Positions 24,676-47,464 of a stretch of DNA of 55,519 bases are shown piece after piece. A program made the translations under genes and the position numbers. Under the pieces are notes generated by a model that was not told the origin of the DNA, ran no database searches, and saw nothing but the letters and a program-made list of their open reading frames with translations. Each line of letters begins with the position of its first letter. The stretch's first letter is position 1. Origin of the DNA: a virus. Where the stretch lies: positions 1 through 55,519 of the IMG/VR virus record IMGVR_UViG_3300010401_000041; one strand, given 5' to 3'.

Positions 24676-25026
24676 ATGCCAGAAATTAATTACAAACAAT
24701 TATACGAAGCGGAAAAAGAAAAGGTAATAGCTTTTGAAAAAAAATGGGATGCTTTGGAATTGCAAGGCAAAGCAAAGTTGTATTATTCCCTTAATCGGAA
24801 TATGAGCGATCTTTCGGATATGCTTGATGGAATTGAATTGAAGAAGGTGAACATGGATGATCCGAAAGACAAAACAATGGAACGATTAAAAATGATATGG
24901 GCTTCCGTTAAGCCACTTGTTGAAACAATTAATTTAATAAGGGAAGCGTCTGGTATTACCGGAGATGAGAATAAGGACACTGAAAGAAAACCATTTGTCA
25001 ATACAATAGCACAAGATAGAAAGTAG
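24676..25026 (+). CDS. Candidate small terminase subunit (by position), 116 residues
   Basis: This helical, charged 116-residue protein (MPEINYKQLYEAEKEKVIAF...) directly precedes the large terminase, whose GTG start overlaps its TAG stop. Small terminases are often short helical proteins at this position, so this is the best candidate. No helix-turn-helix is clear to me, and another packaging-related role is possible. Confidence 0.45.
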   Translation: MPEINYKQLYEAEKEKVIAFEKKWDALELQGKAKLYYSLNRNMSDLSDMLDGIELKKVNMDDPKDKTMERLKMIWASVKPLVETINLIREASGITGDENKDTERKPFVNTIAQDRK

Positions 25027-27086
25027 TGTCATTAGCGGTAAACATATACGGAACGCTTGTAGATGTCCCTGAAAACGAGGGATTTTTTGATGTTGAAAAT
25101 TGGGGAACCGATAACCCAAAAGAACAGTTTTGGCGCAGGAAAGATTTGCCAAGTTTTTTTGAACAGGTTGAATATGATAAAGACGGGAATGTTTTATTAA
25201 CAAAAGAACAGGAAGTATACGCTAAAAGAGAAGTAGATAGGTGTAAAAATGGGTTTTATTTTCTTAGTAACGGTAAACTCACTTATATAACCGGGAAACA
25301 TTATTTTTATCTAGCGTGGTGGAAGTTGGAAGATGACATATACCCAGAGTATAGGGATTCCGATAGGAGATATTTTCTTTTTTTAAATCACTGGGAGTGC
25401 ATTTTATGGTGCTTAGGAATTTTAAGAGGAAAGAAGCGTCGTGAAGGTGCAAGTTCGCAGGCAACATCCAATCTTATATATGAATGTATTTTCTTCAGGA
25501 ATAGCGTATGCGGGTTAGTCAGTAAAACTCTACAAGACGGCAAAAAAACTTTCACTAACATGGTTGCCTTTGGATATAGGCAGTTGCCTGTTTTCCTAAA
25601 ACCAAAACAATTAAATAATAAAGATTCTGTTTCTGAATTAATTTTTGCCCATAAATCAGTTAATACAAAAGACGGGAAAGGTCAAACAATTGACACGGAT
25701 ACTGGTCACAGATCATCTGTAGACTTTCGTGCGCCCGGTAAGAATACATACGATTCTGGTAGACTAAGTCGCGGCCTTTTTGATGAAGGAGGAAAGTGGG
25801 ATAGCGAAAATCCATTCTCTGAATTTTTATCTATTGTCAGCAAAACAATGGTTAAAGGTGCGAAGCGTGTTGGGTTCATGGAGTGTCCGTCAACCTGTAA
25901 TGAAATGACTAAAGCAGGCGGCGCACAATACAAAATAGCATGGAACAACGCCAATCAATTTGAATTAAAAGATGGAAGAACGGTAAACCGTCTCGTAAGA
26001 TACTTCTCTCCTGCTTATGATGGATTCTATGGATTTATTGATAGATATGGAATGTCCGTCATTGACCCTCCCGACGAAGACCAATTTAATTATTTGGTTG
26101 AAAACTATGTCGGTGTGGGCGATCTTACCGAAGAAGATATACGGTTAGGCGCAAAAGCATATTTACTTAAAAAAAGAGAAGGACTAGAAGGGGCTTTGCT
26201 TGAAGAAGAAATCCGCATGAATCCATTTGACGAAAGAGAAATGTTTCTTTCAAAGAATGGGAATTGTCATTTTGATGCAGTGCTATTAGCTGAATTATAT
26301 GACAGGGCTAAGTCAATGGAAAAAGAAGTATTGGAGTGGGGTAATTGGGTTTGGAAAGATGGAATTCCTTTCTCAGAAGCTATTTGGGAGTCCTGCAATC
26401 CTGCGCACGCCCGTTGGACGCGCCCCAAACTTTTTAAAATTCCAGAAGGAGATAAAGTAGAAAAAATAGGTGAATTATATACGCCAATTAACCATATACA
26501 ATTTATAAGCGGGTGTGATCCATTTCAAAATTCAATACTAGAAAGCGGGGTGGGATCGAAGGCTAGTTCCGGCATCATAAACAGATATGTAGACCAAGAG
26601 AATGACGATATTTTTAATCGAATGATAGTTTCAAAATACCATGCACGCCCTAAAATGGCTGAATTACTTCACATGGATATGGCATTACAGTGCTTTGCTT
26701 ATGGTTGTCAGATTTTGATTGAAAGTAAAATGGATGGAGGTATGAGGAAGTTTTTTATAGATAATAATCTGGAAGCCTTTTTATTAAGACTTCCGGGGAA
26801 AGAAAACTATGGGATTGATCCAAACTCAGATAATAAAGCGTTGTTGGTAAATTTATGGGAATCTTATATTTTAAGAGAAGGTAAAGCTGGTAAAATGATA
26901 TATGCAGACGACGTGATTGATGGAGAGAAAGACGGGTTGGTTAAGTTTGATGTAAATGAAACAGAGCCTTCAGATAATGTCATGGGGTTGGGCTGGACGC
27001 TTGTAGCAGACTATTACAAGAAAGTAAACTTCAGAAAAAAAACAACCACATCCGTAGAGGATTATTTTCCGAGGTATCAAAATTGA
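25026..27086 (+). CDS. terL: Terminase large subunit
   Basis: The 686-residue packaging motor has a GTG start. The ATPase domain carries a Walker-A-like GKKRREGASSQAT (135-147), as in terminases of Bacteroidota phages, and a Walker B ending LFDE (D253, E254). The RNase-H-like nuclease domain shows FISGCDPF (D498) and ILIESKMDG (E565), which fit the first two metal-binding acids. The C-terminus is hydrophilic. Neighbours are a candidate small subunit upstream and, unusually, the sugar-modification cassette between it and the portal gene. Confidence 0.85.
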   Translation: MSLAVNIYGTLVDVPENEGFFDVENWGTDNPKEQFWRRKDLPSFFEQVEYDKDGNVLLTKEQEVYAKREVDRCKNGFYFLSNGKLTYITGKHYFYLAWWKLEDDIYPEYRDSDRRYFLFLNHWECILWCLGILRGKKRREGASSQATSNLIYECIFFRNSVCGLVSKTLQDGKKTFTNMVAFGYRQLPVFLKPKQLNNKDSVSELIFAHKSVNTKDGKGQTIDTDTGHRSSVDFRAPGKNTYDSGRLSRGLFDEGGKWDSENPFSEFLSIVSKTMVKGAKRVGFMECPSTCNEMTKAGGAQYKIAWNNANQFELKDGRTVNRLVRYFSPAYDGFYGFIDRYGMSVIDPPDEDQFNYLVENYVGVGDLTEEDIRLGAKAYLLKKREGLEGALLEEEIRMNPFDEREMFLSKNGNCHFDAVLLAELYDRAKSMEKEVLEWGNWVWKDGIPFSEAIWESCNPAHARWTRPKLFKIPEGDKVEKIGELYTPINHIQFISGCDPFQNSILESGVGSKASSGIINRYVDQENDDIFNRMIVSKYHARPKMAELLHMDMALQCFAYGCQILIESKMDGGMRKFFIDNNLEAFLLRLPGKENYGIDPNSDNKALLVNLWESYILREGKAGKMIYADDVIDGEKDGLVKFDVNETEPSDNVMGLGWTLVADYYKKVNFRKKTTTSVEDYFPRYQN

Positions 27087-27092
27087 CTATAA

Positions 27093-27722
27093 ATGTGGAT
27101 TAATTTTTTTTCTAAAATATATCTCGTTAATTTAGCCAAGCGGCGCGATAGATTATTTGAAACCGCCGAACACCTAGAGAAATACGAAATCCCCTTTTCT
27201 TTATTTACAGCGATAGAAAAGCCGGACGGTGCAGAAGGATTGAGAGACACCATGAACCTCATATTTGATGAGGCAATTGAAAATAATTACCCTAATATAC
27301 TAGTACTAGAAGACGATTGTGAGTTTATAAAAGAAAAAATCTGGGTTGACGAGACAATGAATGGTGTAGTAGAACAACTACCAGAAAATTATCTTTTATG
27401 TTATTTGGGAGGACAGGCAACCGGCGGCTATAGTGGCTTCTATTCCGGCAATTTGCTACCTGTTACTAAATATTTTGCAACTCACGCAGTCATGTACTCA
27501 TTACAAGGGATAAAAGAAATAAAAGCAAGAAATCTAGGTTACCCAATTGATAACTGGCTTGTAGATAATATTCAAACACAAGGGAGATGTTATGGAATTC
27601 ACCCGTTATTAGCAAGCCAACGGGCTGGATATTCTGACATAGGGAAAGCGGAAATAAATTGGTTCCCGTTCATAGTCCCAAGACACGAGCAAAAAATAAA
27701 CGAGCTTAATGCAAGACAATAG
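27093..27722 (+). CDS. Glycosyltransferase, GT25-like (LPS type)
   Basis: The N-terminus KIYLVNLAKRRDRLFETAEH and the later PNILVLEDDCEFI are hallmarks of GT25-family (LPS biosynthesis) glycosyltransferases. The 'EDD' motif should bind the metal and nucleotide sugar. The protein has 209 residues. It is the first gene of the cassette, 6 bases after terL. It could decorate virion proteins or alter host surface sugars. The target cannot be told from sequence. Confidence 0.8.
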   Translation: MWINFFSKIYLVNLAKRRDRLFETAEHLEKYEIPFSLFTAIEKPDGAEGLRDTMNLIFDEAIENNYPNILVLEDDCEFIKEKIWVDETMNGVVEQLPENYLLCYLGGQATGGYSGFYSGNLLPVTKYFATHAVMYSLQGIKEIKARNLGYPIDNWLVDNIQTQGRCYGIHPLLASQRAGYSDIGKAEINWFPFIVPRHEQKINELNARQ

Positions 27723-28416
27723 GAAAATAAGTATTGTAATCCCAAACTACAACCGGACTGACTTATTGATTGAGTCATTTGAAAAGGTATATTCCGACGA
27801 TAGAGTTTCTGAAATAATTGTTTCGGATGACTTTTCCGAAAAATCAGTTTATTATGAATTGATGGATTTGTTTGAGTTAATGCCAAAGGTGAAGATGTTC
27901 CGGAATCAATTCAATCAGGATTGCTACATGAATAAGCACACGGCAATGGAGTTGGCTACTAACGAATTTTGTATCTTGGCCGACTCTGATAATATTTTCG
28001 AGCCAGATTATATAGACAGGGTATATAGTTTTCCTGTATGGGATAAAAATACAATCTACGCCCCGTCATTTGCGAAACCTACGTTTAATTACACAGAATA
28101 TAATGGAGAAGTTATAACAAAAGAAAACGTTTCTTCGTTTATTGATAAGCCAATGTTTGAAACGGCTTTGAATACAAGTAATTTCTTCATAAACAGAAGT
28201 CAGTACTTAAAAACATGGGACGGGGCGGTTGATCCTGTAACATCCGACAGTATATATTTTGTCTATTGTTGGTTAAATGCTGGCAATAAATTCCATATTG
28301 TAGATGGGATGGAATATTTTCACAGAGTCCACGACGACAGCCACTATAAAATAAATGTAGCCAGAACGCCAGAAGGGTTCCATGATTCAATTTTAAATAA
28401 ATTAAGGCAGTTATGA
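27709..28416 (+). CDS. Family 2 glycosyltransferase
   Basis: This 235-residue protein has the GT-A start KISIVIPNYNRTDLLIESFE, then SEIIVSDDFS and FCILADSDNIFEPDY, the DXD-type metal site of GT2 enzymes. It is a stand-alone catalytic domain without membrane anchor. It overlaps the previous gene by 14 bases and the next by 4, so the cassette is tightly coupled. Confidence 0.85.
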   Translation: MQDNRKISIVIPNYNRTDLLIESFEKVYSDDRVSEIIVSDDFSEKSVYYELMDLFELMPKVKMFRNQFNQDCYMNKHTAMELATNEFCILADSDNIFEPDYIDRVYSFPVWDKNTIYAPSFAKPTFNYTEYNGEVITKENVSSFIDKPMFETALNTSNFFINRSQYLKTWDGAVDPVTSDSIYFVYCWLNAGNKFHIVDGMEYFHRVHDDSHYKINVARTPEGFHDSILNKLRQL

Positions 28417-29084
28417 TTTTACCATACTCAATAACCACATTTGATGCCAATAAGTTTGACTTTGTAAAAGTAGTGTCTGAAATATTTGCGCGTCATGATT
28501 TGAAAGACTTACAACAACTTTCTGATAATAAGTATAAAGAACAATTTCAGGTAGGCATGGATTCGTCAACGGTATTTCATGAAAAATTCTACGATAAATT
28601 CAGAGAAGGTTGGAGCGAGTTGAATGATATGTATATGGATTTTATTAAGGAAGTGGTTGCCCCGGGATATGATGAAGATTTTCTGTTTCAGGCATTTCCA
28701 ACTTTCCGCGTCCACTTGCCTAAAAACGTTGCCGTTGGAGCGTTTCATAATGATGCAGAATTTCACCATCCAAAAGGAGAGGTTAATTATATAATCCCTC
28801 TAACCAATTCCAGCAAAACAGCAAGCGTATGGGTTGAATCAGAACCGGGAAAAAAAGATTTCATTGATATAATTCTACAGGTAGGAGAACTTGTAAGGTT
28901 TAATGGGAATGAATTGACACATGGGAACAAGAAAAATGAAACCTCAAATACCCGCGTGTCTATGGATTTTCGCGTATTGCCATTATCTAAATACGATGAA
29001 AGTAATTCCGGTGAATCAATAACAAGAAACACCAAATTCAAGGAAGGCGAATATTATAAAAGATTCACTCATGGTAGGAACTAG
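28413..29084 (+). CDS. 2-oxoglutarate/Fe(II)-dependent oxygenase
   Basis: The pattern FHNDAEFHHP (H112, D114), ELTHGN (H170) and R181 in NTRVSMDFRV fits the HxD...H iron triad and the 2-oxoglutarate-binding arginine of a double-stranded beta-helix dioxygenase, related to the StrG/phytanoyl-type family. The 223-residue length fits a single domain. In a cassette of glycosyl- and methyltransferases it probably hydroxylates or oxidises a sugar or the acceptor residue. Confidence 0.75.
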   Translation: MILPYSITTFDANKFDFVKVVSEIFARHDLKDLQQLSDNKYKEQFQVGMDSSTVFHEKFYDKFREGWSELNDMYMDFIKEVVAPGYDEDFLFQAFPTFRVHLPKNVAVGAFHNDAEFHHPKGEVNYIIPLTNSSKTASVWVESEPGKKDFIDIILQVGELVRFNGNELTHGNKKNETSNTRVSMDFRVLPLSKYDESNSGESITRNTKFKEGEYYKRFTHGRN

Positions 29085-29823
29085 ATTTTACGGTAGACTT
29101 GGCAATGTTTTTTTTCAAGCGGCTCACTGTATTGCTTTTGCGATGAGGAATGGTACAGAATTTTCAATGCCTAATAGAACCACTGATCCGTATTGGAATC
29201 CGCTGTATCTTCAACATCTAGTCGATCCGTATTATATACAAGGTAAAGAGGATGTTCTTGTTAATGAAAAATATCATGAATTTCAAGAGGTACAATTTTT
29301 AGATGAATGGAGAGGAAAACAAGTTGTATTGAACGGCTATTGGCAATCAGAAAAATATTTCAAAGATTATAGGACACTGATTTTAGACTTGTTTAATTTT
29401 CCTTGGGAGCAAAAGAAATTCGTTTCTATACATATCAGGAGAGGTGATTATTTGAGATTGCCGGATAAACACCCGCCATTTTCAGAAGAATATATGAGGT
29501 GTGCGACAAGTAGGTTTTACATGAAGGGTCATGATTGCTTCAAGGTGTTTTCTGATGATATTGCTTGGTGTAAAGAGTATTTTAAAGACCCCCACTATGC
29601 GGCAATGAAGATTGAGTTTTCAACCAATACAAGCGAGGTTGATGATATAACAGAAATGAGTCATGCGGTTGGGCATATAAATTCTAGTAGCACTTTTTCT
29701 TGGTGGGGTGCTTGGCTAAACAGAAACCCTGATAAGATTGTTTTTACACCTAAACTTTGGTTCGTAGAAAATTATCCACTCAATACAAGCGATATAATCC
29801 CAGATAGCTGGATAAAAATATAA
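29071..29823 (+). CDS. GT11-like glycosyltransferase (fucosyltransferase family)
   Basis: Family signatures appear in order: GRLGNVFFQAAHCIAFA (9-25), HIRRGDYLRLP (121-131), FKVFSDDIAWCKEYF, and SSTFSWWGAWLNRNPDKIV near the C-terminus. This is the GT11 alpha-1,2-fucosyltransferase pattern, with the HxRRGDY motif for GDP-fucose. The 250-residue length fits a bare catalytic domain. The donor is probably GDP-fucose or a related sugar supplied by the host, as no fucose-synthesis genes are seen here. Confidence 0.85.
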   Translation: MVGTRFYGRLGNVFFQAAHCIAFAMRNGTEFSMPNRTTDPYWNPLYLQHLVDPYYIQGKEDVLVNEKYHEFQEVQFLDEWRGKQVVLNGYWQSEKYFKDYRTLILDLFNFPWEQKKFVSIHIRRGDYLRLPDKHPPFSEEYMRCATSRFYMKGHDCFKVFSDDIAWCKEYFKDPHYAAMKIEFSTNTSEVDDITEMSHAVGHINSSSTFSWWGAWLNRNPDKIVFTPKLWFVENYPLNTSDIIPDSWIKI

Positions 29824-29827
29824 AATA

Positions 29828-30373
29828 ATGGAAATAAACAGCAGAGTTCAAGTAGTAGAGTTAATGAAGCATTTCCAGTTACCATTGGTAGCGGCAGAAG
29901 TTGGAGTGGCTGAAGGAAGATTAAGTAAAGAGCTATTAAATTGGGGCATTGAAAAATTATACCTTATTGATATTTGGGAAAAAGTTCCATTTATAAAAGG
30001 ATGCGGAAGTTTTGACCAAAGCTGGCACGAAAACAATTACAAGTCAGTGTTGGAGGCCATAAAAGGGAGGGAAGATGATGTGATCCTGTTGAAAGGATTT
30101 TCCTATAAGATGGCCGAATTTATACCAGACAATAGTTTGGGAATGGTTTACATTGACGGCGATCATACTTATGAAGGAGCAAGGGCAGACATTGATTCAT
30201 ATTGGCCTAAATTGGTAAATGGAGGATTAATGCTTTTTCATGATGCAGTTAACCCGACATACGGGATAATGGATGCGATGCACAATTTCACAAAGGGGAT
30301 TGGGATTAATTTATTAGAGGAAGATGGCAATATTGCCAATAAGGGCGCGTGGATTCAAAAATCAATGTTATGA
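29828..30373 (+). CDS. Class I SAM methyltransferase (Methyltransf_24 type)
   Basis: The protein has VAAEVGVAEGRLSKELL as motif I and YIDGDHTYEGARADIDSYW followed by GGLMLFHDA. The last two are the signature of Methyltransf_24 enzymes, which often methylate sugars. It is 181 residues long. It overlaps the next gene by 4 bases if that gene starts at 30370. Confidence 0.8.
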   Translation: MEINSRVQVVELMKHFQLPLVAAEVGVAEGRLSKELLNWGIEKLYLIDIWEKVPFIKGCGSFDQSWHENNYKSVLEAIKGREDDVILLKGFSYKMAEFIPDNSLGMVYIDGDHTYEGARADIDSYWPKLVNGGLMLFHDAVNPTYGIMDAMHNFTKGIGINLLEEDGNIANKGAWIQKSML

Positions 30374-30969
30374 CATTGCAGAAATTAGGAGAAAAGTACG
30401 GGGTAGATAAGAAATTCCATCCAAATCTTCTTTCTCAATACGAAGACCATCTTCCTATTCACTGTAAAAAGTTTTTGGAAATAGGTTGTTTATATGGTCA
30501 CAGCGCAAAAATGTTCAGGGAATGGTACGGAGAAAAAACAGAGTTTCATTTACTTGATTTATTCAGTGTAGTGTCCGAAGGAGAGTTGGAAGGGTTTAAA
30601 ACATATAAAGGGAAGCAATGTGATTTTGAGGTACTCGAAAAACTTCCTACCGATCTGGGAGTAATTAGCGAAGACGCGTCGCACCACTCGGATGAACAAA
30701 TAATAACATTTAAAAAACTATTCAAAGACAACTTGATTAGCGGTGGGCTGTATGTCGTTGAAGATTGCTATGGTCATTTTGATCCATATTGGAGAAGAAA
30801 TATTATTGAGAAGCCAGAAGATACAATGGTTCCGCTAATGAAAACGTGGCTAAACGGAGGTGATTTGACTAGTCAATTCTTCACGCCCGAAGAAAATGTA
30901 TATTTTAAAGCAAATATAGCAGACGTTAAAATATACGACGATGTAAACGTATTTATATGGAAAAAATAA
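30370..30969 (+). CDS. Class I SAM methyltransferase
   Basis: ATG at 30370 (MTLQKLGEKYGVDK) overlaps the previous stop in an ATGA and is preferred over the in-frame GTG at 30349. Motif I is FLEIGCLYGHSAKMF. Later segments are VISEDASHHSDEQIITFKKL and GGLYVVEDCY, as in sugar or antibiotic O-methyltransferases of the TylF/cephalosporin-hydroxylase-like group. It is probably a sugar O-methyltransferase. Confidence 0.75.
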   Translation: MTLQKLGEKYGVDKKFHPNLLSQYEDHLPIHCKKFLEIGCLYGHSAKMFREWYGEKTEFHLLDLFSVVSEGELEGFKTYKGKQCDFEVLEKLPTDLGVISEDASHHSDEQIITFKKLFKDNLISGGLYVVEDCYGHFDPYWRRNIIEKPEDTMVPLMKTWLNGGDLTSQFFTPEENVYFKANIADVKIYDDVNVFIWKK

Positions 30970-30973
30970 CAGC

Positions 30974-32209
30974 ATGTTAGACGACAACGAAAAGCAAATG
31001 ATAATTGGCCTGTTCCCCTTTCTTTCAAAGGAGCCAGTTGTCTTTGATATTGGGAGCAACAAGGGACATTTTGCAGACGTTTTTTTGGGCGAATATAAAG
31101 ACGACTGCATGTTATTTCTTTTTGAGCCAAATAGTAAGCTATTATCTTTTACGGAAATAAAATACGAGTATCAAAAAAATATCATTTACGAAAACTTGGC
31201 TGCTTATAAGTCAGAAGGTGAAGTTTCATTTCATTTCTTTGAGAATTTCAATAATGAATTGTCCTCTATATATCCAGATGAAAATAACTGGCAGGGATTG
31301 CCAATGCAGACCAAAAATGTGGCATCCATCTCTATGGATGCTTATTGCAAAAGACATCAAATAGACATTATTGATTATTTAAAGATAGATTGCGAAGGAG
31401 GCGACGTTGATGTTCTGGAAGGATGTAAAGAATTGATGAAATCTGGCAGTATTAAAGTTATTCAAATAGAATATTCCGATCATTACAAAAGAGCAGGGAA
31501 ATCAATGGCAGATGTATTTGATCTTGCCAAAGAAAGTGGATATACTGTATATAATTACAGGATGGGAAACTACTGGAAGATTGAGGATAATTGGTCGTCA
31601 ATGGCGACCGATAATTATATTCTCACCAAGGAAGAAATTCACAACTATTGTAAACCGGGATGGAACAATGAATTTATAATTAATACCTCTGAATTGCCGA
31701 GAGTTGACCTATGTTTGGAAATTGGAGTAATGGAAGGCATGACGACAAAATATATCTGCCAAAACCTATTAAGTGAAGGAGGACGCGTTATAGCGGTCGA
31801 TCCGTTGTTGGATCACTATGTTGAAGGCGATACCGAACACTCGTATTTCAAAGGCCAATATCCTAGATTCATAAGAAACACAAGAGGACTGCCAGTTGAA
31901 TTAAAACGCGGCAAAAGTCAGGACGAATTGCCTAAGTTAAACGCATTGAGATTTGATTTTATTTACATTGACGGCGATCATAGGCATGATGCAGTTTACC
32001 ATGATGCGGTATGGTCGTTTGCGATTTGTAAAAATGGAGGGATTATACTGATAGATGACTATGAATGGCGCGAAGAAACGAAAGCTGGCATTGATAAGTT
32101 TTTGGCCGAATTCGGATCATCTCTTCAGGTTTTAATTAAAGGGTATCAGGTATTAATACAGAAGATACATAATCAATACAACGAAATCACTTTTGATTAC
32201 TATAAATAA
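30974..32209 (+). CDS. Fusion of FkbM and Methyltransf_24 methyltransferases
   Basis: The first 230 residues are an FkbM-type methyltransferase (VVFDIGSNKGHFADVF, then IDYLKIDCEGGDVDVLEG, then IKVIQIEYS). The last 180 are a second SAM fold of the Methyltransf_24 type (LCLEIGVMEGMTTKYI, then FIYIDGDHRHDAVYHDA, GGIILIDDYEW). Both keep the SAM-binding glycine motif and the later acidic motif, so both could be active on neighbouring hydroxyls of one glycan. Confidence 0.8.
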   Translation: MLDDNEKQMIIGLFPFLSKEPVVFDIGSNKGHFADVFLGEYKDDCMLFLFEPNSKLLSFTEIKYEYQKNIIYENLAAYKSEGEVSFHFFENFNNELSSIYPDENNWQGLPMQTKNVASISMDAYCKRHQIDIIDYLKIDCEGGDVDVLEGCKELMKSGSIKVIQIEYSDHYKRAGKSMADVFDLAKESGYTVYNYRMGNYWKIEDNWSSMATDNYILTKEEIHNYCKPGWNNEFIINTSELPRVDLCLEIGVMEGMTTKYICQNLLSEGGRVIAVDPLLDHYVEGDTEHSYFKGQYPRFIRNTRGLPVELKRGKSQDELPKLNALRFDFIYIDGDHRHDAVYHDAVWSFAICKNGGIILIDDYEWREETKAGIDKFLAEFGSSLQVLIKGYQVLIQKIHNQYNEITFDYYK

Positions 32210-32216
32210 ATTATCT

Positions 32217-32843
32217 ATGATGATAGATTTTGATTACTTATTCGACAAATACAACATAAAACCTAACGGGGTTTTACACTTAGGGGCAAACGAAGGGCAG
32301 GAGGCGGAAGATTATCAGAAACGAGGGATTGAAAATGTCATTTGGGTAGAAGCCAATGGTCATGTTTTCAAAAAACTGGAAAATCATGTAAAAGACATTC
32401 CCGGCAGCATTTGCATTCAGGCCTGCGTTTCGGATAGATATTCAGAAACTTTCTTTAATATATCAAATAATGATAGCCAATCCAGCAGCATTATGGAATT
32501 AGGACATCATTCGGTTATTCACCCGGAAGTACATTATGTAGATAAGATACCAATTACCACACATCGGATAGATGAATTACTTAAAGATTTCGATTTTGAA
32601 GGTGATTGGTTTTTAAATGCCGACCTGCAAGGTGCAGAGTTGTTAGCATTAAAAGGGATGGGGGAATTGCTAGATAAATTTAAATGGTGCTATTTAGAAG
32701 TAAATAAAAAAGAAACGTATAAAGGTTGTCCAGATATTGACGACGTAGATGTCTTTTTATTACAAAGAGGATTCGAGCGAGTCGAAACAGGCGAATGGGT
32801 TGCTGATACTTGGACTGATGCTCTTTATTTAAAAGTAAAATAA
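32217..32843 (+). CDS. FkbM-family methyltransferase
   Basis: ATG at 32217 (MMIDFDYLFDKYNIKPNG) follows the previous stop by 7 bases and is more likely than an overlapping TTG at 32193. Motif I is VLHLGANEGQEAEDY, and a later segment NADLQGAELLALKGMGELL corresponds to the FkbM 'KiDvEG.E...L.G' motif with Q in place of E. It probably acts on a sugar hydroxyl. The stop overlaps the next start by one base. Confidence 0.75.
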   Translation: MMIDFDYLFDKYNIKPNGVLHLGANEGQEAEDYQKRGIENVIWVEANGHVFKKLENHVKDIPGSICIQACVSDRYSETFFNISNNDSQSSSIMELGHHSVIHPEVHYVDKIPITTHRIDELLKDFDFEGDWFLNADLQGAELLALKGMGELLDKFKWCYLEVNKKETYKGCPDIDDVDVFLLQRGFERVETGEWVADTWTDALYLKVK

Positions 32844-33709
32844 TGTTTGACCTTTTGCCACATATAAACGTCGCCTACCCGCCAAATAATGAAATAATAT
32901 TTGAAGAATGGTTCCGGGAGGTATATAGAGGTTGTAAAACCGACAGGGGATTACTGCCAATTAACTTTACTTCTTATTGGGTAAATAACGATTATGGTAA
33001 CAATGAAGCTGCCAAAAAATATCTTCAGGAATTTGTAGACGGACTGGATAGGAATAAAAAGTATTTCTGCATTGTTCAATATGACGACGGAGTATTAATA
33101 GACTTTAAAGATTTGGATGTAGTGCAGTTTAATATGTCAAAAAAGGTTGGGATTGAAATTCCTCTTTTATGTCAGCCGCATCCGTATAAGTTTGATGGAG
33201 AAAAAAAATATTTAGCTTCATTTGTTGGTAGTAGGACGCATCCTATAAGAAATGAACTAGAAAAACTAAAAGGCAAAGAAGGGTATCATATTTCTTTTGA
33301 ACCGCATGAGATTGAAGATTATTGTAGAATAATTCACGAATCATATTTCGTTCTTTGCCCGCGCGGATATGGGGCATCTAGTTTCCGCATTTGCGAAAGT
33401 TTGCAGTATGGTGCAATTCCGGTTTATTTATCCGATGAGTTTATAGAGCCGTTTGGCGTGCCGTTTAATTATTACGGTGTAAGAGTAGATGACGGTAATA
33501 TACATAAACTAGAAGATTGGCTCAATCCAGATAATAGAAATGACGGGTATCTCCATAAGAACAAACAAATATTTTATGAAGAGATGTTCACTTACGAAGG
33601 TTGTAGTAAACAAATAATAAAGAATCTTGAAACTGAATATCGTACACGGCAGGACTCCATCTCGTTTTCAGCCAATGGTAGAGGAACTAAAGCGGCAGCA
33701 GATTTCTGA
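32843..33709 (+). CDS. Exostosin-like glycosyltransferase (GT47 type)
   Basis: The C-terminal half contains KKYLASFVGSRTHPIRN, YFVLCPRGYGASSFRICESL and GAIPVYLSDEFIEPFG. This is the exostosin/GT47 pattern, with the acidic-residue nucleotide-sugar site near 'CESLQYGAIPV'. The 288-residue protein lacks a membrane anchor. The next gene starts 83 bases before its end, in another frame. Confidence 0.8.
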   Translation: MFDLLPHINVAYPPNNEIIFEEWFREVYRGCKTDRGLLPINFTSYWVNNDYGNNEAAKKYLQEFVDGLDRNKKYFCIVQYDDGVLIDFKDLDVVQFNMSKKVGIEIPLLCQPHPYKFDGEKKYLASFVGSRTHPIRNELEKLKGKEGYHISFEPHEIEDYCRIIHESYFVLCPRGYGASSFRICESLQYGAIPVYLSDEFIEPFGVPFNYYGVRVDDGNIHKLEDWLNPDNRNDGYLHKNKQIFYEEMFTYEGCSKQIIKNLETEYRTRQDSISFSANGRGTKAAADF

Positions 33710-34175
33710 TTATGAAATATGGGATAGCATCTATTTGAAAACAGTGAAAGCAAGTATAAATGCCGCCCATAAACAAATAGTAGAGTTTGCACAAGTTGCC
33801 AGATGGGATGAAGTATTAATAGCGGAAGATGATTTTGTCGGGACTCATGAAAACAGCTTTAAGTTCTTTCTAAGTAAAAAACCAACTGACTACGATATTT
33901 ATTTATCCATGATATACATGGGGGATATTGACGAAATGAATTGTGTAAAAGAATTTTCCGGGATGACTATGTACATGGTACATTCCAGATTCTACGATAC
34001 GTTTTTAAATACAGACCCGGAAGAACACATTGACCGGACGTTAAGCGGATTGGGCAAGTTTGTTGTATGCAACCCTTTTGCCTTTATTCAAAGAAATGGA
34101 TTTAGTTCAAACACAGGGAAGGAGGAAAAGTATGATACCCTGCTGGAAGGCAGGAATTTATATTTCGGAATTTGA
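33627..34175 (+). CDS. Second GT25-like glycosyltransferase
   Basis: The start is a TTG at 33627, giving MKLNIVHGRTPSRFQPMVEE, a plausible GT25-type N-terminus. It requires an 83-base overlap with the exostosin gene. The motif VLIAEDDFVG matches the metal-binding 'EDD' region, and FSGMTMYMVHSRFYD fits later GT25 sequence. At 182 residues it is short, so the enzyme may be reduced. It is the last gene of the cassette. Confidence 0.65.
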   Translation: MKLNIVHGRTPSRFQPMVEELKRQQISDYEIWDSIYLKTVKASINAAHKQIVEFAQVARWDEVLIAEDDFVGTHENSFKFFLSKKPTDYDIYLSMIYMGDIDEMNCVKEFSGMTMYMVHSRFYDTFLNTDPEEHIDRTLSGLGKFVVCNPFAFIQRNGFSSNTGKEEKYDTLLEGRNLYFGI

Positions 34176-34219: not shown

Positions 34220-36673
34220 TTGAGTACTATCACTGATACACAAATAGGAACTTACCCGAACGCTCAGGTTGATCCACGAGATAAGGGATTTGATTGGATT
34301 CTCCAATACTCCCGCGCCGCGTATAACGATAGCCGGGGCTATATGATTAACGGGCAACTGAATGTCGGAAATTTAAAAATGTCGGAAATTAAAATGTATG
34401 GACTCGGGAAACAGCCCGTTGATAAGTATAAAAAAATGTCATCCCCCGCCAACCCCTCTGATCCATCTTGGAGAGCCGTTGACTGGACGCCGCCGGCCTT
34501 CATGTGTAAATTCCGGGAAATAGAACTTTCCAAAATTCATCAAAAAAAATTCGACTTTCAAGCGTTCGCTATTGACCCTTTAGCCAAGAGCGAGGAAGAC
34601 GCGTATTTCAACCAGATGAAGGTGAAAATACTCATGCGCGAAGCGGCTATGCAACAGGGATCACAGTTAGCGGATAGCCCATTGCTTGCACAACAACCGG
34701 GAGAACCGGAAGACATGGAGCAATTGACCATGCAAAAAGATTTTGGCTATAAGCATGTCATGGCAATGGAAGCGGAAGAAGCTATAAGTCTCGTTTATCA
34801 GCAGAATAATATAGATGAAATCGAAAGTCAGTTAGGACAAAACTTATATGACTATGGGCTGGGTGCTGTTACCTCTGAAATTGACGAAAACGGAATGGTG
34901 AAACTCAGGGTTATCAACAACGAATATTTAGGAACATCATATTTTGAAAAGCCTGACGGATCGGACATGATTCACTGGTTTGAAATAATCCCTACTTATG
35001 TAGGTGATTTAGCCCCCTATTATACAAAAGAACAACTGGATGACATTTGTAAAAAATCGTTAACCATAAATGGCAATCCTAATTCCTACACACCTTTCAA
35101 TGGGTATTTCAATAAGGCGTGGAATAGGTTCAAGGTTATGGTAATGAAAATAAAATTCTATAGCTGGAACGATACTGTTTATAAAGAAGAGATTGATGGT
35201 AGGGATAACCTTAGATTTGGGAAGTCTTCTTACAAGAATAAACAGTTTTTATCCGTAAATCCATCTGGCGAATTACAACAGGAAGAACCAGAAGATAATG
35301 GGTATAACGCCTCTATTAATGATACTAATGACAGAGGCGGTGAGCCTACTCCAAAATATATTGGTAGCTGCAAAAAAGTAGTGTATAAAGCATCGTGGAT
35401 TATCAACACGGAGTATATGCACGATTGGGGGTTAAAGGAAAATCAAAATCGTAAACTATCTTCTTGGTGGGACACCGATTTGGATATTTACCTGTATGCT
35501 TGGAATTTTTATAAAATGCAATTCACGGGTATTACAGAAAGATTGATTCCGCTGGAAGATAGCGCGTGTATGACTTGGTTCAACCTACAAAATCTTTCAA
35601 ATAAACTCATCCCGTATATTATCAATATTGACATGAACTCCGTAGAGGGCGCGTTTCCGTACGGGAAGGGCGGAACTAAAGGTAAGCCGTCAGATGTCAT
35701 TGATTTTATATTCAGTAATTTCATTGCGCCATACAGAAGTACTGACTTACTAAGTCGTAACCCTAATTACAAACCAATTACAATTGAAGCAACCGGGCAG
35801 CTTGCTGCATTTGTTCAATTACACGATAAGTTGCAACGGGAGCTAGACTATATGAGATTGGTGTCTGGCTTAAATGAAGCGACTGATGCCAGCACAGTAA
35901 ATGCTAAAAATTTAAATTCAACAAATGAGGCAATGGTAGAAAGCACTAATAATGCTATCTACCCAATAGTAAATGCCAAGAAAAATATTCTTCGTCGTCT
36001 TGCTGATGGAGTAGTTCAGAAAGTTCAGATAGCCGTTAAGTTAGGAAAGGTTCAAGGGTACGCAAAAGCACTTGGCACAAACGCAGTTCAGTTTTTCAAT
36101 ATCAACCCGGATATTTCCCTTCACGAATTAGGAATATTTCTTGAAGAAGCTCCAACGCAAGCACAAAGAGATGCGTTATGGCAGGATGTTTCTATAAAAG
36201 AAAGTCAAGGTCTGTTAACTGTAGGGGATAAGGCTTTTATTATGACTTGCCGAAATCTGAAAGAAGCCTATATGGTTTTGGACTACAAGATTAAAAGAAG
36301 GAAAGAAGAGGCACAGCAATTTGAACTTCAAAAAATTCAAGAAAACAATCAGGGGCAAATGCAAATGCAAGCCCAAGCCGAACAAATGAAGCAGCAAACA
36401 ATGGCTATGCAGGGGCAAATAGATATGCAGGCTATAGTAACTGAAAAAATGTGGGATTTTGAAATTGAAAAAATGAAGAAAACCGCAGATGTTCAAGGCG
36501 AATCATTACAAGCGGATGCAAGAACAATTGGGCATCAAATTCAAGCTCACGCGAAAGTTGTTTCTTCTCAAATTGCAGCAGCAGCAAGCATCGGTAAGCA
36601 ACACATTGCGGGGGAATCAGCAAAAGAAAAGCAAGAGATTGCTAACAAGAAAAAACCAGCGAAAGCTAGTTAG
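34220..36673 (+). CDS. Portal protein
   Basis: The 817-residue protein, starting at TTG 34220, resembles portals of crAss-like and related Bacteroidota phages: GFDWILQYSRAAYNDSRGY near the start, then a mixed body and a long glutamine-rich helical C-terminus (EEAQQFELQKIQENNQGQMQ and onward). The C-terminal region is the barrel or crown helix, here extended by Q/M/A repeats. Being large and immediately upstream of the scaffold and capsid genes, it fits the dodecameric DNA channel. Confidence 0.75.
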   Translation: MSTITDTQIGTYPNAQVDPRDKGFDWILQYSRAAYNDSRGYMINGQLNVGNLKMSEIKMYGLGKQPVDKYKKMSSPANPSDPSWRAVDWTPPAFMCKFREIELSKIHQKKFDFQAFAIDPLAKSEEDAYFNQMKVKILMREAAMQQGSQLADSPLLAQQPGEPEDMEQLTMQKDFGYKHVMAMEAEEAISLVYQQNNIDEIESQLGQNLYDYGLGAVTSEIDENGMVKLRVINNEYLGTSYFEKPDGSDMIHWFEIIPTYVGDLAPYYTKEQLDDICKKSLTINGNPNSYTPFNGYFNKAWNRFKVMVMKIKFYSWNDTVYKEEIDGRDNLRFGKSSYKNKQFLSVNPSGELQQEEPEDNGYNASINDTNDRGGEPTPKYIGSCKKVVYKASWIINTEYMHDWGLKENQNRKLSSWWDTDLDIYLYAWNFYKMQFTGITERLIPLEDSACMTWFNLQNLSNKLIPYIINIDMNSVEGAFPYGKGGTKGKPSDVIDFIFSNFIAPYRSTDLLSRNPNYKPITIEATGQLAAFVQLHDKLQRELDYMRLVSGLNEATDASTVNAKNLNSTNEAMVESTNNAIYPIVNAKKNILRRLADGVVQKVQIAVKLGKVQGYAKALGTNAVQFFNINPDISLHELGIFLEEAPTQAQRDALWQDVSIKESQGLLTVGDKAFIMTCRNLKEAYMVLDYKIKRRKEEAQQFELQKIQENNQGQMQMQAQAEQMKQQTMAMQGQIDMQAIVTEKMWDFEIEKMKKTADVQGESLQADARTIGHQIQAHAKVVSSQIAAAASIGKQHIAGESAKEKQEIANKKKPAKAS

Positions 36674-36713: not shown

Positions 36714-37838
36714 ATGTCAGCGACACTATCTACTTTCTCACAAGTGCAGAATAATTTAGAGAGTTTTGAACAAAAACAAAACACCCCGGCAGTACCCGAA
36801 ACGCCGGTTGTTCCAGAAACTCCCGTCGCTACTCCTGAAATTCCAGTTAGCCCATCGGTTCCAGAAACACCGGCACAACCTGAAACCCCGGAAGCTCCTG
36901 TAGTCGATGAAAGTTCGTCTGATTTTTCTATTTCATTAGATGATAATAATCCCGTTGTTCCAGAAACGCCAGCAAAACCTTCTGTCCCCGCTGTATATAA
37001 TTGGAAAGAGGAATTAAAAAAAATTCCAAAGACAGAAGTTCTAAAGGAAATTGGCCTAAATGATTTTGCTATCGAATTGGACGAGCATATAGCAAAAGGT
37101 GGGAAACCAGTTGACTATCTTAACGCAAGAGCCGTTGATTATAATTCAATCAGCGACGAATCAATCATAAAAAGCAGCCTTCAGAAGCAATATCCAAATT
37201 TTACACCACAGCAAATTGATTTATTCTTTTCCAGAAAGTATGCGGTATCTCTTGAAGGTACAGATGAAGATAAAGAGTTTGCTGATCTGCAAATGAAAGC
37301 AGATGCACACTCAATCAGACAAAACGCAATTGCAGAACAATCAAAATATAAAGTTCCAGACGGAATTATTCCTCAAAAAGACGAGGCCTATGACGAATGG
37401 AAACAACAACAAGAGACGTTAGCCCAACGTTCTCAACAACTCACCGATTTTTATTTGAATAACCCGGCAACAAAAAACCTACATGAAAGTAAGAGAGTTA
37501 CTATAAGTTTAGGAGAAGGAGTTAAGCCGTACAATTGGGTTATCGACAAGCCAGAAGTTATCACCAACGCATTTACCGATGGAGGCCAAACATGGCAAAA
37601 GCTAACGCGCACAGCAACGGGAGAGCCGGACGTAGCGAAGCAGCAGTTAATAGCATTATTTGCTATTAACCCCACAAAGTTCATGCAGGACATTTTTAAC
37701 TATGGTAAAGGAATGGGCGTTCGCAAAGAGCTTGTAGAAGAAGGACAAAATGCTCAACGACCACAAGCTAAGATTATCAACGCTGATCCAAATGCAAAAC
37801 CAACGTATCGTACGGGTACGTATGCAGGAGGCAGCTAA
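36714..37838 (+). CDS. Putative capsid scaffolding protein, PET-rich N-terminus
   Basis: Residues about 24-85 are a low-complexity region of VPETP-type repeats. The remaining 290 residues are charged and helix-rich with a flexible C-terminus (AKIINADPNAKPTYRTG). The position directly upstream of the major capsid gene, the acidic disordered start and the helical body fit a scaffolding protein. No protease signature is visible. Confidence 0.55.
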   Translation: MSATLSTFSQVQNNLESFEQKQNTPAVPETPVVPETPVATPEIPVSPSVPETPAQPETPEAPVVDESSSDFSISLDDNNPVVPETPAKPSVPAVYNWKEELKKIPKTEVLKEIGLNDFAIELDEHIAKGGKPVDYLNARAVDYNSISDESIIKSSLQKQYPNFTPQQIDLFFSRKYAVSLEGTDEDKEFADLQMKADAHSIRQNAIAEQSKYKVPDGIIPQKDEAYDEWKQQQETLAQRSQQLTDFYLNNPATKNLHESKRVTISLGEGVKPYNWVIDKPEVITNAFTDGGQTWQKLTRTATGEPDVAKQQLIALFAINPTKFMQDIFNYGKGMGVRKELVEEGQNAQRPQAKIINADPNAKPTYRTGTYAGGS

Positions 37839-37866: not shown

Positions 37867-39210
37867 ATGGCAGCAAGTACTGGTATTATAAATAAGTCGT
37901 ACGTATCGGCACTCGATCCGGTTCTCGACACACGTGAAATAAACAAACTCATCACCGACGTTCAAAATGAAGATGAATTAAGTGATATTTTGAATTATGG
38001 CAATAAAAAAATGTCAACAAAACAGCCCGTTTATTACACTTTCTACGATGACCCGCTGATTAAATCAGTAACAGTAACATCAAATACAGGAACAGGTTCA
38101 ACCCAAGTTACCCCTGCTTTAAGCGCGGCAACTTCCGGTTATACACGTAATGGTGATATGGTAATGTTTACCAACAACGTGGTTGGTATCGTTACAAACG
38201 TGGCAACATCTTCAGGTATTGATACTATTACAATTAAGGCGGTTGCTGGCGCAAACATTACGTTGGGCGCGACCGATACGCTTTCTTTGTTCTCTCGTGC
38301 GGTTGGTGAAAATTCATACACTGCAACCAATCTTCGTTATGGCTTAACACGTCAAACGAACAAGTATCAAATCTTTGACGGAACATCCCGCATCACTGAT
38401 GTTCAGAACGCATCAACAATTGAAGTTGATTTTCAGGGTCAACCGAAATATATCTTCAAAGACCATTGGGAAAAAACTATCAAGATGAAATCAGACATCA
38501 ATGCCGCCTTCTGGGGTGGTGATATGTCAGTGACTTCATATTCTGATGCAAACCCAATTCTTACCGATCCTGTTGTAGCGTCTGATGGCTTATCCGGTGG
38601 CGGCGCAGTTCAAACAACACGCGGAGTAAACAAATACATTGATTTGTATGGAACGGCTCTGGTGAACGGTACTTTGGGAACTTATCAAAAAGCAAACCTT
38701 GACGATCTGGTTGCAAATCTGGTTGCGGTTCGCGCTCCAAAAGACTATCTGGTAGTTGGTTCTACTCTGGCTAAAAAGACTACTGATGATTACTACAAAT
38801 CTCTTGGTTCTTCAGGTGTAAACTCAGTAAGAATCATTATCGATGGGCGCGAATTGGATATGACCGTAGATAAAGTTAGTGTTGGTAAATTCCAACTTAA
38901 CTATACAGTGATGCCAATTTTGGATCATCCTATTACGTTCGGTTTCTCAACAATTCCAAAGAACCTGTTCTATTTGCCACTCAACAACAAAGTAAAAGTT
39001 GAAGGTGGCGGTAGTGATGACCAAATCCGCGTTCGTTACGTTCCTAAGCAAACTGTTTACGGTAACGATATGACGAATGAGATTCACTACGGCGCATTGA
39101 ATCCTGTTAATCCAAACGGCCCCGGTATGTTTACTGGAACTGATTGGAAAACAGCGCAAGGACTTGAAGTGTTAGCACCGCAATTCCTTATCAAGCAAAG
39201 AGTGCTTTAA
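37867..39210 (+). CDS. Major capsid protein
   Basis: This 447-residue protein (MAASTGIINKSYVSALDPVLD...) has the size, position and mixed alpha/beta composition of an HK97-fold capsid protein in Bacteroidota podoviruses. The stretch KYIFKDHWEKTIKMKSDINAAF and the C-terminal VLAPQFLIKQRV fit this. It is followed directly by a strong terminator, which matches very high expression of this gene or of the portal-capsid unit. If the phage needs its own co-chaperonins, this protein is the probable client. Confidence 0.75.
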   Translation: MAASTGIINKSYVSALDPVLDTREINKLITDVQNEDELSDILNYGNKKMSTKQPVYYTFYDDPLIKSVTVTSNTGTGSTQVTPALSAATSGYTRNGDMVMFTNNVVGIVTNVATSSGIDTITIKAVAGANITLGATDTLSLFSRAVGENSYTATNLRYGLTRQTNKYQIFDGTSRITDVQNASTIEVDFQGQPKYIFKDHWEKTIKMKSDINAAFWGGDMSVTSYSDANPILTDPVVASDGLSGGGAVQTTRGVNKYIDLYGTALVNGTLGTYQKANLDDLVANLVAVRAPKDYLVVGSTLAKKTTDDYYKSLGSSGVNSVRIIIDGRELDMTVDKVSVGKFQLNYTVMPILDHPITFGFSTIPKNLFYLPLNNKVKVEGGGSDDQIRVRYVPKQTVYGNDMTNEIHYGALNPVNPNGPGMFTGTDWKTAQGLEVLAPQFLIKQRVL

Positions 39211-40189: not shown

Positions 40190-40714
40190 GTGGCCTATAC
40201 CGTAAATTTCACTTACTCGCAAGCGTATGGAAATATTACGCTGGCTACACTTATTGACACAAGCACAGGAACCGATCCGGGAATAACGGGTCGGCTTGTG
40301 TATTTGCGCAAAGCAGACGGAACCTATCTGGTTCCTATGAATACTACTACAAGTTATATTTTTTGGCCGGTTGTTTCAGGAACTGGGGACACTATTAATA
40401 TTAATATCTTAGATCAAGATTACGCTCTGGACGTTACGGTTATTTGGTATACGGGATCAACAGAATATAATAGAGTAACTACACTTTGCTTATTCAGGGC
40501 GTATGCTGAAAGATTCTTAAGACAACTCACATTTGCACAGGCTGGCAGACCTAAATTATTGGATAACGACAATTACTGGACTGCGAAATGTAAACTAAGA
40601 ACTTTGGTCGATGACGCAGTTCAAGGGGTTGCTCTCATTAATGACCAGACAATTGCCCAATACGCATTGGAAGCTGCTAAAGAAATGATCGATAACCCAT
40701 CATTATTTTATTAA
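40190..40714 (+). CDS. Putative structural protein, 174 residues
   Basis: A GTG start (40190) opens a protein with an N-terminal beta domain (YTVNFTYSQAYGNITLATLI, GRLVYLRKADGTYLVPM) and a helical C-terminus. The beta part resembles Ig-like or barrel domains of head-completion proteins. It overlaps the next gene by one base. Confidence 0.6.
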   Translation: MAYTVNFTYSQAYGNITLATLIDTSTGTDPGITGRLVYLRKADGTYLVPMNTTTSYIFWPVVSGTGDTININILDQDYALDVTVIWYTGSTEYNRVTTLCLFRAYAERFLRQLTFAQAGRPKLLDNDNYWTAKCKLRTLVDDAVQGVALINDQTIAQYALEAAKEMIDNPSLFY

Positions 40715-41280
40715 TGGCGTACTCAATTCCAAATATAATTTTATGGGCTAAGATTACGCAAGGGTTGGCGTCTCTCAATGAACCTAAAAAAAAGGCACTC
40801 ATTGGAGGAAGTGTAGACGTTAACTTGGATAATATCTTACGCATTGAACGAACAAGTCTTGAATGGCAGTACGCGCAAGACCCAACAGATGCAGACGGAT
40901 ATTTATTTCCAATGGGGAACTATGTTCTTGCACTCATTGGCGCGTACCTTTCGGATGCACAACAGGCAGCAGGCGGTGGTGGCGGAAGCGTTACGCCAAT
41001 TACTCCGGGTGTCACATTGCCAATACCTTATGATTTTGAAATTACGCCTTCTAGTTTCCCTATTGCAGACGGAGGAAATAATATTTTCTTAGATGGAACT
41101 AATGGGACACAAAATTTCATAGGTTATAATGTGATTTTTGTTAGAAATGGAATAACGCAATCAACAATAGGATTGTCTGTTGGAAGTTCTTACTTTGGGT
41201 GGAGTAGATTGGACGGCAAGTTTACGTGTATTCCAAATGCGTCGCTCGGGGAAATATTTACTATTATTCCCGTAGGGTAA
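40714..41280 (+). CDS. Putative structural protein, 188 residues
   Basis: A helical N-terminal half with AYLSDAQQAAGGGGGS as a glycine hinge leads to a beta-rich C-terminal domain (DFEITPSSFPIADGGNNIFL...). This layout fits a virion accessory protein or short fibre. It is coupled by overlap with the preceding gene. No family is recognised. Confidence 0.55.
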   Translation: MAYSIPNIILWAKITQGLASLNEPKKKALIGGSVDVNLDNILRIERTSLEWQYAQDPTDADGYLFPMGNYVLALIGAYLSDAQQAAGGGGGSVTPITPGVTLPIPYDFEITPSSFPIADGGNNIFLDGTNGTQNFIGYNVIFVRNGITQSTIGLSVGSSYFGWSRLDGKFTCIPNASLGEIFTIIPVG

Positions 41281-46393: not shown

Positions 46394-47464
46394 ATGGCTA
46401 TTCTCTTCGCTCCAAAAAAACTATCAGACTTCAGATTAACAGGACATCAATATTGTTGCCCTGATTCTATTACCGATGGAACGTTGCCAGATGGTACACC
46501 TTGTGTGAAATATTTGCTGCGTCCTACAGATGCAAGGGTAAGTAGTTCTATAAGGGCTGAAGCGGAATATCCGGCCGGGGTGGATGTGGGCGAAGAAGAT
46601 GAAAGATGGTACGGGTTGACCTTCTTCTTTGAGCAATATGACAAAGACCCAACACCGGAAAGTATTTTTCAATTCCATGACAACGACGGCTCAACCCCTC
46701 CCGGCTCAATCCAAGTGAATAACGGAAGGCTTTTGTACATGAGAGCCACTAAGAAAGAAGGCAACACCCCCTATGATATTGGAGCATTAGAATTGAATAA
46801 AAACGTGAACATTGTCATTCATGTTAAATGGAGTATATCGGCAATTGGCATTGTAGAAGTATGGAAAGACGGAGTTAAAGTTGTATCTAAACAAAACGTT
46901 GTAACTAATTGTAGCAAAGGCAATTACGGTAAATGTGGAATTAATAAATGGAGTTGGGATAAAGATACTCTGTGGTCAACAATTAAAACACCGCGCAGAT
47001 ATTCTATTGGTAATCTTAAAATCGGTGATGCAAAAAGTTCTTACAACGAAGTTGCTCCCGGTGCTGTTGTAGTAGTTCCACCAGTTGTATTGCCAAATCA
47101 AGCACCTATTGCAAATGCAGGGGCAGATCAAACAATAAAACTCCCCTTGAATGATATTGTATTGGATGGAAGCGGTTCAACAGATAAAGACGGCAAGATT
47201 GTTTCCTATAGGTGGTCTGCGCAAAATGGCGTGACACTAGGAACGTCTGCATCTCTTCAATTGAATGATCTCACAGAGGGGAATTATAAATACATCCTAA
47301 CAGTTACAGATGACAAAGGCGCAACAGGAACCGACGATGTTTCAGTAACAGTATTAGCAGCCGATCCATTACCAGCACCAAAGATTATCTCTACCATTAC
47401 CACAGTTGAAATTGATTTCGATAATGGCGCAAAAGAGTTTTGGAAGAACGGAGTTAAACAATAA
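46394..47464 (+). CDS. Polysaccharide-lyase-like depolymerase with PKD domain
   Basis: The first 215 residues follow the jelly-roll pattern of the heparin-lyase-I-like family (Polysacc_lyase): RAEAEYPAGVDVGEEDERWY near residue 54, GLTFFFEQ, IFQFHD, IVIHVKWS and VEVWKDG. Residues about 236-321 are a PKD domain (NQAPIANAGADQTIKL, DGSGSTDKDGKI, YILTVTDDKGATGTD). A short C-terminal module follows. There is no signal peptide, in contrast to the two genes upstream. It is a candidate virion depolymerase acting with the SGNH fibre on the host capsule. Confidence 0.7.
   Translation: MAILFAPKKLSDFRLTGHQYCCPDSITDGTLPDGTPCVKYLLRPTDARVSSSIRAEAEYPAGVDVGEEDERWYGLTFFFEQYDKDPTPESIFQFHDNDGSTPPGSIQVNNGRLLYMRATKKEGNTPYDIGALELNKNVNIVIHVKWSISAIGIVEVWKDGVKVVSKQNVVTNCSKGNYGKCGINKWSWDKDTLWSTIKTPRRYSIGNLKIGDAKSSYNEVAPGAVVVVPPVVLPNQAPIANAGADQTIKLPLNDIVLDGSGSTDKDGKIVSYRWSAQNGVTLGTSASLQLNDLTEGNYKYILTVTDDKGATGTDDVSVTVLAADPLPAPKIISTITTVEIDFDNGAKEFWKNGVKQ

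Follow-up and report, generated by a model that had tools for sequence, protein, structure and literature searches.

What does a run of carbohydrate-active genes do between the packaging and portal genes of a phage? We addressed this for the 55,519-base IMG/VR virus record IMGVR_UViG_3300010401_000041 (the window; positions refer to the whole stretch), in which ten plus-strand genes fill 27093–34175 without a break, flanked by the genes for the terminase large subunit (terL) on the left and the portal protein on the right. They comprise five glycosyltransferase (GT) genes, four methyltransferase (MT) genes with five domains and one gene for a 2-oxoglutarate (2OG)-Fe(II)-oxygenase-like protein (Table 1). 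An earlier, sequence-only reading had listed GT25, GT2, GT11, GT47-like and short GT25 transferases, four MT genes with five domains and an oxygenase, and each lies on the plus strand where it was placed; the title of that reading spoke of nine genes, but its own list totals ten (five GTs, four MTs and one oxygenase), as does the sequence. With moderate confidence, we lean towards reading the block as a late-gene module of ancient origin, whose products would form a soluble pathway, working in the cytosol, for a defined, branched, O-methylated oligosaccharide, most likely on a head structural protein of the phage. A defined product of several steps had already been deduced from the number of enzymes, and this deduction is supported; we likewise infer the acceptor, the sequence of steps, the sugars donated and the benefit gained.

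Conservation and probable transfer of the cassette

The genes are tightly packed. Starting at terL and ending at portal, the successive intergenic distances are 6, -14, -4, -14, 4, -4, 4, 7, -1, -83 and 44 nt (taking ATG starts at 30370 and 32217), that is, cassette neighbours either overlap or sit at most 7 nt apart, much as had been described. terL and portal are adjacent in the uncultured Manatee Spring phage and in distantly related cultured phages (Cellulophaga phi18:3 and phi38:1, Flavobacterium elemo phages and Maribacter Panino), and the cassette does split this pair, as the sequence-only reading had proposed.

An alignment-based scan of IMG/VR with the probable major capsid protein recovered 48 loci; sequence scans with terL and with the portal protein recovered no relatives and two, respectively. 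We fetched terL-to-capsid regions from 30 of the capsid-found contigs (numbered with L below), and 26 of these held eight to ten genes in a common order, GT25a-GT2-GT11-MT-GME-FkbM-GT47-GT25s (GME, GDP-mannose 3,5-epimerase), with optional extras. The same order, with both flanks present, recurred in L090 and nine more contigs (L097, L101, L121, L122, L126, L127, L136, L141 and L143), GME being absent from L090 and L121. At least 36 related IMG/VR contigs have this ordered core in the terL-portal interval; some of them are near-identical, so that independent lineages are fewer than contigs. Every cassette gene tested in relatives had a ratio of nonsynonymous to synonymous substitution rates (dN/dS) of 0.01–0.21, and the catalytic motifs of the enzymes are conserved. 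The cassette genes are under strong purifying selection and are not a product of chance.

The sequence-only reading had argued for insertion as a unit, and had named conservation of the position in all relatives as the observation that would count against a recent event. Synteny showed the cassette to be missing solely from more distant relatives and, nearly, from L083. In-place conservation in at least 36 relatives, together with third-codon-position GC content (GC3) equal to that of the core genes (0.348 in the cassette versus 0.328), leads us to reject recent insertion; the idea of a unit stands, as an ordered core is found in unrelated phages. Neither mark of a recent moron, absence from close relatives or compositional deviation, was seen.

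In L085 and L086 (capsid 35% identical), terL and portal overlap by a few bases, L084 has a 1-kb terL-portal gap and no cassette, and L083 retains only the last cassette gene. In the capsid tree, L083 grouped with the cassette-bearing L082 and L009 (support 0.93), and in the terL tree it was sister to L082 (1.00). Given this placement, the simplest account is a single gain ancestral to the clade followed by loss, making the near-absence in L083 probably secondary. The terL proteins of L081 and L082 are strongly divergent (26–36% identity to the window terL), with portal and capsid proteins still of the clade; in L081, L082 and L083, an exchange seems to have replaced terL as far as the edge of the cassette.

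Related cassettes occur in other phages. A GT11-alignment scan returned 511 viral contigs, and about 27 of the best 80, which we fetched, form a lineage whose portal is of another type (Phage_portal_3) and which has a MuF-like head protein. In this 'soil lineage' (the label denotes an inferred habitat), the order is portal-MuF-[GT2-GT11-(MT)-MT24-FkbM-(GME or OGO)-GT2]-protease-decoration-capsid (OGO, the oxygenase); about eleven contigs show it in full, flanks on either side included. In further lineages, GT25-GT2-GT11-MT-FkbM-GT47 adjoins what is probably terL (weak match, 1e-4) or lies with probable capsid-side genes on one side and portal on the other. The GT11 tree nested the soil lineage in the diversity of the window clade (supports about 0.9), which indicates movement from one phage lineage to another. 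It is associated with virion structural genes in both settings, between terL and portal in the window clade and inside the head module in the soil lineage. In a phage-genome collection the GT2 had no relative, and S-SKS1 and two uncultured phage records were alone in having relatives of GT47. Capsid-protein relatives are encoded in none of the GTDB genomes, and a GT47 scan gave one remote match (31%), in a bacterial metagenome-assembled genome; the cultured distant relatives suggest Bacteroidota, such as Flavobacterium, as probable hosts. We found no published description of this enzyme combination in the literature searched, which leaves out most subscription journals.

Epimerase, oxygenase and allele exchange

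All 26 cassettes of the first batch encode one GME family, whose L065 member matches Arabidopsis-type GDP-mannose-3',5'-epimerase (3.7e-73). No GME gene was found in the window. Within the clade the oxygenase is confined to the window, L090 and L121, and a second, alignment-based oxygenase scan added no contig. Among cassettes with both GT11 and FkbM, the window clade has 3 with the oxygenase, 40 with the epimerase and none with both or neither; other lineages have 7 with each, none with both and 16 with neither, and these counts are not phylogenetically independent. L009, left out of the counts on FkbM, has neither enzyme and carries a UDP-glucose/GDP-mannose-dehydrogenase family gene. In the soil lineage, either enzyme can fill the slot between FkbM and the following GT2 gene (L105 versus L106 and L109).

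A bolder reading, which we regard as tentative and rather doubtful, is that of a mobile head-glycan island, passed collinear between unrelated tailed-phage lineages and each time into a head or packaging module, with two interchangeable chemistries for one sugar position: a phage GME yielding GDP-L-galactose, or oxidation by the 2OG oxygenase. Hydroxylation of L-fucose at C-6, for example, chemically gives L-galactose. Interchangeability at one position would explain why epimerase and oxygenase never occur together, and such an island would be the phage counterpart of autonomous capsid glycosylation in giant viruses.

Single genes have also been replaced without change of position. L073 and L078 share 59% identity in GME, against 88–95% for the remaining cassette genes, and MT24b is 68% identical between L059 and L065, against 85–96% for the rest, which suggests that glycan type may be switched by recombination. 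Such swaps, the variable middle genes, the homing-endonuclease-like genes in several cassettes and the inserted genes known between terL and portal in Microbacterium phages (PMC7302621) could instead mark a late-region diversity hot spot, in which loosely related carbohydrate genes gathered as separate morons that share no pathway. We judge this improbable, however, as the core stays collinear within the clade and in other phage lineages, all genes tested are under purifying selection, and GME and oxygenase alternate strictly.

Virion protein or host surface

In the preferred reading, a virion glycan, the five GTs would add sugars sequentially from nucleotide-sugar donors, with the products of the four MT genes capping hydroxyls and the oxygenase hydroxylating a sugar or a side chain. 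The host would supply the donors entirely in the window phage; in most relatives, the phage's own GME would provide GDP-L-galactose or GDP-L-gulose, plausibly for GT11. Possible benefits are particle protection, stability or altered adsorption. A simple hydropathy scan found no transmembrane segment in the ten cassette proteins (highest 19-residue hydropathy, 1.27), and no flippase, polymerase or undecaprenyl-phosphate/lipid-carrier enzyme was recognised in the cassette. Soluble enzymes without lipid-carrier machinery fit stepwise transfer onto a cytosolic acceptor, and because the cassette recurs in head modules, that acceptor is most likely a head protein.

The main rival is late modification of the host surface, in which precursors of lipopolysaccharide or capsule would receive methylated or fucosylated caps at the cytosolic face, for example to block re-adsorption of progeny or superinfection. 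We keep it foremost because the GME and GT11 genes of cyanophages, which lie outside the structural region, have been interpreted in this way, as cell-wall modification genes in S-SCSM1 (PMC9602691). The enzyme families are also those of O-antigen and capsule loci, and the window phage encodes a protein with polysaccharide lyase and PKD domains (46394–47464, plus strand), which may be a virion depolymerase for capsule or exopolysaccharide; its presence suggests that adsorption depends in some way on host polysaccharide. Against this, the cassette has no membrane or lipid-linked-sugar enzymes, unlike gtrA/gtrB-type conversion modules, and it recurs within head modules of unrelated phages. Furthermore, the window open reading frames (ORFs) that were scanned included no recognisable integrase, so that any benefit would be confined to a dying cell. 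We consider host-surface modification possible but unlikely, and the head-module placement and lack of membrane enzymes favour the virion.

Several points nonetheless weigh against a virion glycan. An acceptor site or glycoprotein is known for none of these phages, and GT25, GT2, GT11 and GT47 enzymes also serve cell-surface polysaccharide synthesis. The cyanophage GME-GT11 pair, interpreted as acting on the host cell wall, sits in a non-structural region, the late-gene location may mirror expression timing alone, and the fold matches of the short GT25 are to generic GT-A enzymes (TM-score about 0.5–0.7).

A third possibility is that the enzymes glycosylate hypermodified phage DNA, since phage GTs and 2OG oxygenases are able to act on DNA (Pyle 2024, as cited in PMC12619734). 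No hydroxymethylase, thymidylate-synthase-like, cytosine-5-methyltransferase or TET/JBP match was found in a scan of the larger window ORFs. Moreover, most relatives lack the oxygenase, whose resemblance is to a family from carbohydrate clusters. With base-hydroxylating enzymes not found in the scanned ORFs, we regard a role in DNA modification as very improbable.

Virus-encoded virion glycosylation has precedents. According to Freeman et al. 2023, cited in PMC11256854 and PMC12363180, the mycobacteriophages Che8, Corndog and Myrna likewise use phage-encoded GTs, with glycans on capsid and tail-tube proteins; few GTs are involved there, whereas the cassette, in an unrelated phage group and with a predicted glycan, has five, with four MT genes and an oxygenase or epimerase. 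Chlorovirus PBCV-1 has a cytoplasmic, virus-encoded pathway that combines several GTs with a glycan methyltransferase and enzymes for donor sugars, and its major capsid protein thereby receives a methylated oligosaccharide that contains fucose (PMC7019647). However, it is a virus of eukaryotic algae, its genes are scattered, and its GT families differ except for a generic GT-A fold match. Cyanophages S-SCSM1, S-PRM1 and S-CAM9 carry adjacent GME and GT11 genes (about 50% and 34% identical, respectively, to the relatives' GME and the GT11), but among metabolic, non-structural genes. Serotype-conversion gtr modules (GtrA/GtrB/Gtr-type) are also phage-encoded GT blocks, and the cassette GT2 weakly matches the GtrB-like phrog_841 (6.3e-4); unlike them, the cassette has no GtrA flippase or membrane GT and lies in a lytic head region, not beside an integrase. 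If the virion reading is right, which we think somewhat probable, the cassette would be a new variant of a known general type, virus-encoded virion glycosylation.

Virion glycosylation is documented in few cultured phages only. A conserved multi-enzyme cassette that occurs in tens of environmental contigs, and within head modules of unrelated phages, suggests that complex, methylated particle glycans may be a common, exchangeable phage trait. Its fixed gene order, its near-loss from L083 and the alternation of epimerase and oxygenase are handles for assigning a role to each enzyme.

Gene assignments and further features of the window

Families were assigned by profile matches to Pfam, PHROGs and NCBIfam (Table 1).

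Table 1. The cassette, its flanking genes and insertions in related contigs
Feature	Position	Strand	Evidence
terL, terminase large subunit (left flank)	25026..27086	+	phrog_6681 3.5e-67; 66-69% identity to terL of most cassette-bearing relatives
GT25a, glycosyltransferase family 25 (cassette gene 1)	27093..27722	+	PF01755 Glyco_transf_25 2.3e-7; EDD motif invariant in 11 sequences
GT2 glycosyltransferase	27709..28416	+	PF00535 1.6e-14; same-position orthologues 45-54% identical
OGO, 2OG-Fe(II)-oxygenase-like protein, 223 aa	28413..29084	+	TIGR04324 5.5e-8, under curated cut-off
GT11, alpha-1,2-fucosyltransferase-like	29071..29823	+	PF01531 2.2e-19; phrog_2644 6e-37; HxRRGD motif
Methyltransferase (Methyltransf_24)	29828..30373	+	PF13578 1.8e-14; L082 gene 58% identical
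Methyltransferase, 206-aa ORF	30370..30969	+	phrog_21658 8.9e-18; L121 relative 44%
Fused double methyltransferase, FkbM + Methyltransf_24	30974..32209	+	PF05050 6.7e-16, PF13578 3.4e-17; L057 fused gene 50% identical
FkbM methyltransferase	32217..32843	+	PF05050 3.7e-13; TIGR01444 2.6e-13; conserved in clade
GT47, exostosin-like glycosyltransferase	32843..33709	+	PF03016 Exostosin 1.1e-14; 43-53% identity to 11 relatives
GT25s, short GT25-type glycosyltransferase (last cassette gene)	33627..34175	+	AlphaFold2 fold and EDD motif
Portal protein (right flank)	34220..36673	+	phrog_6547 7.3e-43
Probable major capsid protein	37867..39210	+	Position after portal; marker for finding relatives
Homing-endonuclease-like insertions	L009 5043-5801, 6597-7445; L090 4786-5721, 8395-9090; also L060, L068, L075, L076, L081		HNH/GIY-YIG type, identified by reading sequences

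Two enzymes needed further evidence. The oxygenase scored 32.7 bits against TIGR04324 ('sporadic carbohydrate cluster 2OG-Fe(II) oxygenase'; model cut-off 150), and by this comparison is only a distant relative of that family. It had no Pfam match, and its HxD...H iron triad and 2OG-binding arginine (H112, D114, H170 and R181) are invariant in four homologues. PDB sequence searches with the oxygenase and with GT11 gave no match, and the AlphaFold2 model of the oxygenase, examined for a double-stranded beta-helix, reached a pLDDT of only 43.5 (alignment of just four sequences). The short GT25, also without a Pfam match, was modelled with a pLDDT of 93.6, and Foldseek aligned the model with GT-A enzymes, among them the collagen hydroxylysine galactosyltransferase R655 of mimivirus (8.2e-8) and human COLGALT1 (2.7e-6). 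It further matched viral GT25 proteins and a PBCV-1 enzyme whose PDB title ties it to capsid glycosylation. With an EDD motif invariant across 14 sequences, the modelled protein is, as predicted from its fold, a GT25-like GT-A enzyme.

GT25a and GT25s are not recent duplicates, as a very long branch divides the two types in the tree, and the single GT25 of L083 is not a recombination product of both, as the tree places it with GT25s. A collagen-like acceptor, an idea raised by the pairing of GT25 with an oxygenase, was rejected: G-X-Y runs occur solely in the gene at 36714–37838, and there on its non-coding strand.

Some gene boundaries and names depend on choices of start or on context. The 206-aa methyltransferase has no Pfam match at cut-off and is identified by its PHROG match alone; we took ATG 30370 as its start, the listed ORF beginning at GTG 30349. 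The ORF of the FkbM gene opens at TTG 32193, with ATG 32217 the likely start. The 83-nt overlap of GT47 and GT25s (33627–33709) is shorter or absent in relatives. No PHROG match was found for the probable major capsid protein, which is so named because the gene at the corresponding post-portal position in Panino, the elemo phages and phi38:1 is annotated as a virion structural protein. Two small genes 3' of it (40190–41280) occur in cassette-bearing relatives and L083, not in L084–L086, and are candidate clade-specific virion proteins; in an acceptor search by phyletic pattern, these two clade-specific genes count as one event and were not informative.

Among the relatives, the homing-endonuclease-like genes lie between cassette genes or just before portal. 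In L090, terL is split into two ORFs (726–2674) with about 60 codons matching inverted, a local inversion or an assembly error. In L002 (6984–8243, minus strand), a GT2-like sequence forms an in-frame fusion with a portal C terminus on the opposite strand, pointing to an assembly chimera or a rearrangement.

Elsewhere in the window, the C-terminal half of the product of 5189–5884 (minus strand) matches Tad4, an inhibitor of type I Thoeris (1.6e-32), and the gene is likely anti-defence. A pentanucleotide repeat, (CTTTC) x 5.8, at 3600–3628 lies within the ORF at 3460–3999 (minus strand; Lin1244_N domain), where slippage would shift the frame.

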